Below are positions 8,640-11,081 of a stretch of DNA of 35,626 bases, piece after piece. The notes under the pieces were generated by a model that did no database searches, was not told the origin of the DNA, and worked only from the letters and a program-made list of their open reading frames with translations. The DNA is from Phycisphaerales bacterium (GTDB lineage Bacteria; Planctomycetota; Phycisphaerae; UBA1845; PWPN01). A program made the translations under genes and the position numbers. How positions within the stretch are numbered: the first letter of the stretch is position 1; the number at the start of each line of letters is the position of its first letter. The stretch spans positions 1 through 35,626 of the forward strand of contig JAAYCU010000128.1 of assembly GCA_012729595.1 (NCBI GenBank). The letters run 5' to 3'.

Positions 8640-10265
8640 TTATCCACGCTTAGCCTTGACGGCCTTGGCGGATCGCCGCTTTTTTCCTTCCTCGTCGTTG
8701 ATCAGCTTGTACTCGATGCCGTCGGCCAGGGCGATCCAGGACGCCTCGATGATATTTTCGCTGACCCCGACGGTGTTGAAGATTTCGTGGGTCTGCTCGT
8801 CGCGGAACTCGATGGTCACCCGGACCCGGGCGGCGGTGGCGGCCCGAGGGTTGATCACCCGTACCTTGTAGTCGATCAGCCGGATTTTCTCCACGTCGGG
8901 ATAGTGCGGCCTCAACGCCTTGATCATCGAATGAGCCATCGCGTCCACCGGGCCGTGCCCGCCGGAGACATGATGCTCCGTCGTTCCGTTCACCCGCAGC
9001 CGGACGATGACCTCCGTATCCGGCGCGGTGCTCCGGGAGCTGCGTAACGCGACCGCCCGCCAATGGTCAAGTTCCCAGAACGGGTGATACAGGCCCAGTT
9101 CCTTGCGGCAGAGCAACTCGAAGCTGGCCTCGGCCGACTCGTACACGTAGCCCTGGTCCTCGAATTCCTGCAAGCGTTTCAGCAGGCGGCGCTGGACGGC
9201 CTTGTCGTCGATCTTGAGCTTACGGCCGATCTTCTCGGCCACCCCGCTGGCCCCGCTCAGTTCGCTGATCAGGATCCGTCGGGAATTACCCACGCTTTCC
9301 GGGTCAGTATGCTCGTAACTGCAAGCGGTCCGTTGGACGGCATGCACGTGCATCCCCCCCTTGTGGGCGAAGGCGCTCGGGCCCACATAGGGCTGACCGT
9401 TGGGCGGAACCAGGTTGGCGATTTCGTAAACGTAACGACTCACCTCGGTCAGCCGACGCAGGCCATCCGGCGTCAATACCTTGTACCCCAATTTAATGGC
9501 AAGGTTGGCCGCTACCGTCGTCAGGTCCGCGTTCCCGCACCGCTCGCCGATGCCGTTGACCGTGCCCTGCACATGAATCGCCCCGCGTCGAACCGCCTCC
9601 AGGGCGTTGGCCACGGCCAGTCCGGCGTCGTTATGCGGGTGAATCCCCAACGGCGCGGCCAATTCCGCCTGGATCGCTTCCATGCCCGCAGCGATATGCG
9701 TCGGCAGCGACCCACCGTTGGTGTCGCAGAGGACAAGGCACTCGGCCCCGGACTCATGCGCAGCTCGCAGCGTCTGCAAGGCGTAGTCGGGGTTGGCCGC
9801 ATATCCGTCGAAAAAATGCTCGGCGTCGTAGAACACCCGGCGGCCGTGCTTGACGCAGTAGGCCACCGAGTCGGCAATCATCTTGAGATTTTCCTTCTCG
9901 CTGATTCGGAGCACATCGCGTACGTGCAGATCCCAGCTCTTGCCGACAATGGTGACCACCTCGGTTTTGGCCTCCAGCAGGGCCTTCATGCCCTCGTCGT
10001 CGCCGGGCTTAACGTTTCGCCGCCGGGTCATGCCGAAGGCGACCACCTTGGCGTGTTTGAGCCCGCTCTTGCGCACCTCCCGGAAGAAGGCCGCGTCCTT
10101 GTCGTTGCTCAGCGGATAACCACCCTCGATGTAATCCACGCCCAGCTCGTCCAGCCGGACGGCGATCAGCAATTTGTCGTGCAGGCTCAGACTGATGTTC
10201 TGCCCCTGGGTGCCGTCCCGCAAGGTGGTATCGTATAATTCGATGCGCTGCTGTCCGGTTTTCAT
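8640..10265 (-). CDS. cimA: (R)-citramalate synthase
   Basis: MKTGQQRIELYDTTLRDGTQGQNISLSLHDKLLIAVRLDELGVDYIEGGYPLSNDKDAAFF...HPHNDAGLAVANALEAVRRGAIHVQGTVNGIGERCGNADL...HKGGMHVHAVQR; regulatory C-terminal domain present. ATG at 10265 preferred over the TTG at 10283 in the track (ggaagg upstream). Confidence 0.93.
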   Translation of the reverse strand: MKTGQQRIELYDTTLRDGTQGQNISLSLHDKLLIAVRLDELGVDYIEGGYPLSNDKDAAFFREVRKSGLKHAKVVAFGMTRRRNVKPGDDEGMKALLEAKTEVVTIVGKSWDLHVRDVLRISEKENLKMIADSVAYCVKHGRRVFYDAEHFFDGYAANPDYALQTLRAAHESGAECLVLCDTNGGSLPTHIAAGMEAIQAELAAPLGIHPHNDAGLAVANALEAVRRGAIHVQGTVNGIGERCGNADLTTVAANLAIKLGYKVLTPDGLRRLTEVSRYVYEIANLVPPNGQPYVGPSAFAHKGGMHVHAVQRTACSYEHTDPESVGNSRRILISELSGASGVAEKIGRKLKIDDKAVQRRLLKRLQEFEDQGYVYESAEASFELLCRKELGLYHPFWELDHWRAVALRSSRSTAPDTEVIVRLRVNGTTEHHVSGGHGPVDAMAHSMIKALRPHYPDVEKIRLIDYKVRVINPRAATAARVRVTIEFRDEQTHEIFNTVGVSENIIEASWIALADGIEYKLINDEEGKKRRSAKAVKAKRG

Positions 10266-10293
10266 GGCTGCCTTCCAATCCAAAAATACACCT

Positions 10294-10322
10294 AATAAAA
10301 AACCCTGCCGCGTCGGGCAGGG
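10294..10322 (-). terminator. Intrinsic terminator/attenuator in the cimA leader
   Basis: Minus strand CCCTGCC-CGACGC-GGCAGGG followed by TTTTTTATT, 28 nt before the cimA ATG and not at the end of any recognised gene. Confidence 0.8.
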
Positions 10323-10358
10323 CTATCGCTTGTATCACATCCGGCCGACCGCCCCGCC

Positions 10359-10454
10359 TTACAGGTAGTGAATAATCCCAATAATAATAACGAAGGACCG
10401 GCCGAAAGCCCGCCGCCCATAGATTTGCCCGAGGTGGTCGAATATACCGTGCAT
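10359..10454 (-). CDS. Candidate isoleucine-rich leader peptide of cimA
   Basis: Manual minus-strand translation: MHGIFDHLGQIYGRRAFGRSFVIIIGIIHYL*; ATT ATT ATT GGG ATT ATT preceded by GTT, ending 36 nt before the terminator hairpin. No clear Shine-Dalgarno; start inferred. Confidence 0.65.
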   Translation of the reverse strand: MHGIFDHLGQIYGRRAFGRSFVIIIGIIHYL

Positions 10455-10463
10455 AATCGCTCT

Positions 10464-10492
10464 ACTTTAACCAACCCCACCGGCTGCGTCAA
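10464..10492 (-). promoter_or_regulatory. Putative sigma70-type promoter of the cimA leader
   Basis: Minus strand TTGACG (10487-10492), 17-nt spacer, TAAAGT (10464-10469). Confidence 0.45.
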
Positions 10493-10577
10493 GAGCGGTT
10501 GTATACTGCTCAGCCTGGAGATAAAATGCGTATTTGGCCGGTTTTCGGGATGCGGTAGAAAGAACAACGAGGCGGAC

Positions 10578-11081
10578 ATGGTTAACGGCAAACCCATTCG
10601 TGCGGTCTATCCCGGCACCTTCGACCCTATCACCAATGGCCATATCGACATCATCAAGCGGGCCAAGGTCTTCATCGACGATCTAATCATCGCCGTTGGG
10701 CACAACCCGGAAAAACAGGCCCTCTTCTCCTCCGAGGATCGGGTGACCATGATGCGCGAGATGATACAAGATATGGATGGTGTCGATGTAATTTCATACG
10801 AGGGTCTAACCGCCGAATTCGTCCTTTCCGTCGGGGCCAAGATCATCGTCCGAGGCATCCGCGACAATATCGATCTGCATTTCGAGCTCCAGCAGGCGAA
10901 CATCAACCTGGCCATCGGCGGGGTTGATACCATATTCCTGATGACCAGCGATCTGTACGCCCTGACCAGCAGTACCTACATCAAGCAGATCGTGGAACTC
11001 GGCTGCAAGGATCTCGACCGTCTGAGCCGGCTTGTACCCCCACCTGTCGCCCTGAGGCTTATCGAAAAATTCGGCAAATAA
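10578..11081 (+). CDS. coaD: Phosphopantetheine adenylyltransferase
   Basis: IRAVYPGTFDPITNGHIDIIKRAKVFIDDLIIAVGHNPEKQALFSSEDRVTMMREM...VRGIRDNIDLHFELQQANINL...SSTYIKQIVELG. ORF track start (10368) is over-extended. Confidence 0.95.
   Translation: MVNGKPIRAVYPGTFDPITNGHIDIIKRAKVFIDDLIIAVGHNPEKQALFSSEDRVTMMREMIQDMDGVDVISYEGLTAEFVLSVGAKIIVRGIRDNIDLHFELQQANINLAIGGVDTIFLMTSDLYALTSSTYIKQIVELGCKDLDRLSRLVPPPVALRLIEKFGK

Follow-up and report, generated by a model that had tools for sequence, protein, structure and literature searches.

What controls the transcription of cimA, the gene for citramalate synthase, in a Phycisphaerales bacterium in which a short open reading frame (ORF) with a run of isoleucine codons and an intrinsic terminator lie just ahead of it? 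We analysed a 35,626-nucleotide contig of this organism (the window, by which we mean this whole stretch) together with the regions upstream of cimA in related genomes, and it is very probable that the leader is a ribosome-mediated transcription attenuator, in which the supply of charged tRNA-Ile sets cimA transcription. Its logic follows classical ribosome-mediated attenuation, a textbook class of mechanism; leader-peptide attenuation has been described for Proteobacteria, Actinobacteria and some Firmicutes. As read from the sequences, cimA is preceded by this arrangement in much of the phylum Planctomycetota. In the window alone, the isoleucine-rich ORF and the antiterminator are suggestive, and it is the relatives that settle the interpretation. 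The original prediction had already viewed the region as an attenuator, and this view is supported by the recurrence in relatives, the match between codons and gene and the predicted folds, from which a response to Ile-tRNA charging would be expected.

The cimA locus and its leader

The host genome is an assembly of 4.1 Mb in 406 contigs with a completeness of 97%. The citramalate synthase call rests on the curated equivalog model TIGR00977 (658 bits versus a cut-off of 450), and the nearest matches of the protein, at 73% identity, are from Planctomycetota and Phycisphaerae MAGs. The neighbours of cimA are presumably a coaD-like and a murJ-like gene, named by eye from their translations; the former is divergent from cimA and begins at about 10578, the latter converges on its 3' end, so that cimA apparently stands alone and its control region would be the approximately 310 bp between cimA and coaD. 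On the plus strand, an open frame at 10368-10578 (MNNPNNNNEGPAE...) lengthens coaD upstream over the leader region on the opposite strand, and it is probably non-coding because coaD proper begins at about 10578.

The original prediction had named a promoter, a 31-codon ORF, three pairing segments (2, 3 and 4), a U-tract and the cimA start codon, every one of which we found in place on re-reading the sequence. In the order of transcription, the features of the region are:

10464-10492, minus strand: sigma-70-like promoter TTGACG-N17-TAAAGT (sequence and pattern scan)
10359-10454, minus strand: leader peptide ORF MHGIFDHLGQIYGRRAFGRSFVIIIGIIHYL, 31 codons (sequence; an isoleucine-rich ORF lies at the equivalent place in relatives)
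10392-10406, minus strand: protector 5' arm TTCGGCCGGTCCTTC, inside the ORF (fold of the ribosome-free leader)
10371-10388, minus strand: putative regulatory isoleucine codons ATT ATT ATT GGG ATT ATT (sequence; shuffle test)
10351-10358, minus strand: antiterminator segment GGCGGGGC (segment 2), adjoining the stop codon (8 bp with 10323-10316; equivalent conserved in relatives)
10340-10354, minus strand: protector partner GGGCGGTCGGCCGGA, overlapping the 3' half of the antiterminator segment (fold)
10316-10324, minus strand: shared arm AGCCCTGCC (segment 3), both terminator 5' arm and antiterminator partner (scan and complementarity)
10297-10309, minus strand: terminator 3' arm GGCAGGG (segment 4) and U-tract TTTTTT (terminator scan)
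10265, minus strand: cimA start codon ATG (sequence)
8640-10265, minus strand: cimA, citramalate synthase, 541 aa, the proposed regulated gene (TIGR00977)

The promoter-like pair (TTGACG at 10492-10487, a 17-nt spacer and TAAAGT at 10469-10464) scores 9 out of 12. Its -10 hexamer ends 9 nt ahead of the leader ATG at 10454, and transcription is therefore predicted to start about 3 nt before this codon, which would make the leader mRNA nearly leaderless; no obvious Shine-Dalgarno site is present at the leader ORF, so translation must begin without one. The ORF ends in SFVIIIGIIHYL and a TAA stop codon (10361-10359). Directly before the isoleucine run stands a valine codon, GTT at 10391-10389, giving GTT ATT ATT ATT GGG ATT ATT over 10391-10371, with 5 Ile within 6 codons ahead of cimA. 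At least 5 Ile in 12 codons, in an ORF ending before a terminator, were reached in 22 of 4000 dinucleotide shuffles (window alone).

Between the leader ORF and cimA lies an intrinsic terminator with a 9-bp stem by scan and a predicted energy of -15.9 kcal/mol, made of the shared arm, also read as (A)GCCCTGCC (10324-10316), GGCAGGG (10309-10303) and TTTTTT (10302-10297). In the control region, the scans returned 2 promoter-like and 2 terminator-like sites, against expectations from shuffles of 0.6 and 0.5, so that such pattern scans by themselves prove little. The overall stability of the 176-nt leader is unremarkable (z = -0.41), which is what a switch in a GC-rich genome should show.

Predicted folds and the proposed mechanism

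The antiterminator helix (10358-10351 with 10323-10316) has 8 bp including one G-U pair and excludes the terminator, exactly as the original prediction had it; a match of this kind arose by chance in 52 of 2000 shuffles of the window alone. Folding of the leader in three states gave the protector, antiterminator and terminator logic that had been proposed. Without a ribosome, the RNA forms a long protector hairpin and the terminator. With the RNA free from 10375, as when a ribosome sits on the isoleucine codons, it forms the antiterminator (-21.3 kcal/mol before the terminator 3' arm is made) and retains it when that arm is present (-27.0 kcal/mol). With the RNA free from 10348, as when a ribosome is at the stop codon, it forms the terminator (-18.1 kcal/mol). 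In the Phycisphaerae-type relatives that we folded, the stalled nascent state is likewise the antiterminator, and with the 3' arm present many favour the terminator at equilibrium, so the outcome must depend on the order in which the segments are made, as it does in known attenuators. The protector helix proposed at first (10404-10396 with 10350-10342) is strong in the fold of the window, but its conservation is not significant (mean shuffle p of 0.25 over 16 leaders), and hence it may be peculiar to this genome or replaceable.

We infer a transcription start, translation of the peptide, ribosome stalling and a response to isoleucine that would work together as follows. RNA polymerase would start about 3 nt ahead of the leader ATG, and a ribosome following it would translate the 31-codon peptide from the nearly leaderless RNA. 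With ample Ile-tRNA, the ribosome would reach the stop codon and cover 10358-10351, the shared arm at 10324-10316 would pair with 10309-10303, and transcription would terminate at the U-tract. With scarce Ile-tRNA, the ribosome would stall on the ATT codons at 10388-10371 and cover the protector at 10406-10392; the freed antiterminator segment would pair with the shared arm first, and the polymerase would read through into cimA. If there were no translation, the protector hairpin would sequester the antiterminator segment and the terminator would form.

Recurrence of the leader in relatives

The attenuator had been predicted to stand or fall with the isoleucine run and the competing helices in related genomes, and both are found again in other members of the GTDB family and of the phylum: a comparison of relatives shows short isoleucine-rich ORFs, terminators and compensatory changes in the antiterminator. 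We read ten further cimA upstream regions from the same GTDB family (L085-L095, with L090 and L093 counted as one), 6 of which carry a clearly isoleucine-rich ORF, for example MTNYPSETLARYLAGPITGMGIIIIIGGFGG (L085), MNFGTRSIPTFRPHDGLVAASGIIIAIIIGITG (L088) and MTRLPDGRWNIEVPVGAARAVEIIGIIIRIAGHPGG (L095), each followed by a stop codon. A -10-like hexamer ends 5-10 nt ahead of the leader ATG in L085, L088, L089, L091, L092, L095 and L112, and the 6 isoleucine-rich ORFs of the family start 7-10 nt downstream of such a hexamer. In three others (L086, L087 and L094) antiterminator and terminator are retained but the isoleucine codons number only about 2, and L090 and L093, from related genomes, have a terminator but no isoleucine-rich ORF. 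The terminator of these last two is strong and lies 45 nt ahead of cimA, possibly reflecting another form of control.

The wider survey covered 180 distinct cimA upstream regions, nearly all from Planctomycetota; the 80 named loci include a few from other phyla. A strong terminator is present within 420 nt in 96 of the 180; in about half of the sampled regions no terminator was detected, and the few of these that were inspected (for example L113-L115 and L117) lie directly behind another gene. For each amino acid, its density in any short ORF that stops ahead of the terminator was compared with shuffles of the same sequence. An ORF rich in isoleucine at p ≤ 0.05 was found in 73% of the 96 terminator-bearing regions (Val 15%, Ala 10%, all others less). 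With 60 shuffles per locus and coarse ORF rules that admit GTG and TTG starts, single-locus calls outside the family of the window are less certain than the aggregate.

Joint criteria of p and position were passed by 67 loci, named carriers including Gemmata sp. IIL30 (L057), an uncultured Gimesia (L027) and a member of the Tepidisphaeraceae (L012). The criteria accepted positions from -60 to -15, and in all 67 the distance from the stop codon to the terminator arm is 20-45 nt (median 33). The last isoleucine codon precedes the stop by a median of 5 codons, a spacing at which a stalled ribosome would not mask the antiterminator. The isoleucine codons of all leaders are ATT 250 to ATC 138, the reverse of the genes in the window (ATT 106, ATC 288). 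A promoter-like site at the leader start was seen in 32 of the 67 leaders, versus 24% expected at random positions, so that near-leaderless transcripts are a secure prediction only in the family of the window and its closer relatives.

Pairing of the stop codon within the antiterminator

The complementarity between antiterminator and terminator arm has a mean score of 20.1 for native pairs, compared with 13.7 when the segments are shuffled and 15.4 when the partners are swapped. The native partner was the best in only 5 of the 67 loci, which is unsurprising when an identical arm occurs at many of them. In most upstream regions of the family the stop codon is part of a conserved block, GGGTAGGGC, whose pairing with the terminator arm GCCCTGCCC runs through the stop itself; L112, from another family of the order, has this block too. 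The window differs in that its stop is TAA and the antiterminator starts right after it. The stop codon appears to be paired within the antiterminator in most relatives, an unusual design.

In register-anchored counts of the 20 leaders ending in TAG, each of the eight positions from -3 to +4 relative to the stop is paired in 16-20 sequences, with two-sided changes of G-C to C-G or the reverse at -3, before the stop, and between C-G and T-A at +5, after it. For the leaders ending in TGA, pairing of the stop codon is possible in 26 of 26, the flanking positions are less regular, and several sequences use another register, such as TGACTTGAGG. The two stop codons go with different arms: CCCTGC-type arms accompany TAG in 20 cases and TGA in 0, and CCTCAG-type arms accompany TAG in 1 and TGA in 26 (Fisher 2e-12, a value inflated by shared ancestry because the TAG and TGA types follow major lineages; neither the shuffle nor the Fisher tests take account of such ancestry). 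Both forms keep the pairing.

Other amino acid genes

The match between codon and pathway that was first noted for isoleucine and cimA extends to leuA. In the same family leuA has the same layout with leucine codons (Leu in 9 of 10 at p ≤ 0.05, Ile in 2 of 10), and the genome of the window itself has a leucine leader before leuA, MLNVWIYAETLRNRLPEGLLLSLGLRGERAGYSDG (L083, G000:C361). The leuA leaders inspected (L083, L098-L105 and L108) have a nearly leaderless leucine-rich ORF, an antiterminator like GCGCGTAGGG and a terminator AGCCCTACGC...GCGTAGGGCTTTTTT. Upstream of trpE and hisG in the same family, no comparable leader ORF with a terminator was found. A general attenuation of amino acid genes is accordingly rejected, trpE and hisG lacking a leader and ilvB having a different conserved element.

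This ilvB element is an observation in its own right. In the genome of the window (L124:3225-3440) and in L120, L122, L123, L125-L127 and L129-L131, a 26-nt block, AACCTATTGGAAAGGAGAAAACCATG, lies ahead of ilvB and covers the apparent Shine-Dalgarno site and the start codon; it is identical in 11 of 13 family genomes, occurs once per genome and is missing from the other genomes of the order that were sampled. Upstream of it is a predicted RNA structure with compensatory changes in 18 of 34 predicted pairs and no Rfam match, a candidate new RNA element. Second ilvB copies (L132 and L133) have a short ORF rich in leucine and valine ahead of them, MDNTRPGILQSVDKASEGWKSLVPSLVLVVR in L132, possibly another attenuator.

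Alternative explanations

A terminator plus an alternative helix would by itself also fit a riboswitch-like control by a trans-acting protein or a small molecule, the isoleucine-rich ORF being incidental, and some leader-like ORFs before ilvB and leuA in Actinobacteria have dispensable codons (PMC1262725). We regard this as improbable: what is conserved is the isoleucine codons, the stop codon and the antiterminator, while the loop between the antiterminator and the arm varies in length and sequence, and isoleucine at cimA with leucine at leuA requires translation. Rfam gave no match in the window at the gathering threshold, and at E ≤ 1 in six related loci the sole match was unrelated and sub-threshold, with no T-box or other cis-regulatory family.

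Slightly less probable again is an unregulated terminator that shields cimA or ends a small RNA or peptide gene near the cimA start, with a second promoter downstream driving cimA. The terminator is real, L090 and L093 keep one without the leader, and in some relatives the terminator lies about 100-190 nt ahead of cimA, which leaves room for another promoter. In the window, however, the gap from the end of the U-tract (10297) to the cimA ATG (10265) is just 31 nt, a scan found no sigma-70-like site there, and this explanation accounts for neither the isoleucine bias nor the covariation between stop codon and arm. It is hardly credible that the regulatory codons are leucine codons in another frame (MGGGLSAGPSLLLLGLF...) of a leucine-sensing leader, because, although the (TTA)n run reads as leucine there, this frame stops only past the terminator, relatives keep isoleucine at the equivalent place in the described frame and leucine leaders belong to leuA; we therefore reject it and take the isoleucine frame as right.

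Comparison with known systems and implications

As an attenuator, the cimA leader resembles those of the enterobacterial trp, his, leu and ilv operons, which have runs of the pathway amino acid, protector, antiterminator and terminator logic and a leader with a Shine-Dalgarno site. It shares the first two properties and differs from them in having no obvious Shine-Dalgarno site and in that, in most relatives, the stop codon would be base-paired inside the antiterminator. To our knowledge, the genes under classical enterobacterial attenuators do not include cimA. The original prediction likewise knew of no cimA case, and our search of the freely accessible literature found no report of leader peptides for cimA in any organism or for Planctomycetota.

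The closest described case that we found is the ilvBNC attenuator of Corynebacterium glutamicum, with the leader MTIIRLVVVTARRLP and a transcription start one nucleotide from the leader start codon (PMC11857589). Both precede branched-chain amino acid genes, are nearly leaderless (the cimA leader by prediction) and have antiterminator and terminator hairpins, whereas the C. glutamicum leader belongs to ilvB, another phylum and another peptide, with mixed Ile, Val and Leu codons and no isoleucine tract. In Sinorhizobium meliloti, trpL encodes a leaderless leader peptide with ribosome-dependent transcription attenuation (PMC7298713), similar in these two respects but concerned with tryptophan and trpE(G) in an alphaproteobacterium. 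Actinobacteria have short ORFs with Ile, Val and Leu runs before ilvB and a LEU element before leuA, the latter described as a pseudoknot whose base stem involves the leuA Shine-Dalgarno site (PMC1262725). The short ORFs are a shared feature, but the layout seen at cimA is a terminator and antiterminator pair.

We see about even chances for the broader proposition that attenuation of this kind is ancient and spread across the phylum Planctomycetota, that the stop codon lies in the antiterminator helix so that TAG and TGA have co-evolved with the terminator, that isoleucine would control cimA and leucine leuA, and that the leaders would be nearly leaderless at least in Phycisphaerae. If true, it would provide a testable circuit for the control of isoleucine and leucine synthesis in a phylum with few studied regulators and place the citramalate route under attenuation. 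It would also offer a clean case of a stop codon and an RNA helix evolving together, and it predicts that nearly leaderless leader mRNAs would be translated in this group.
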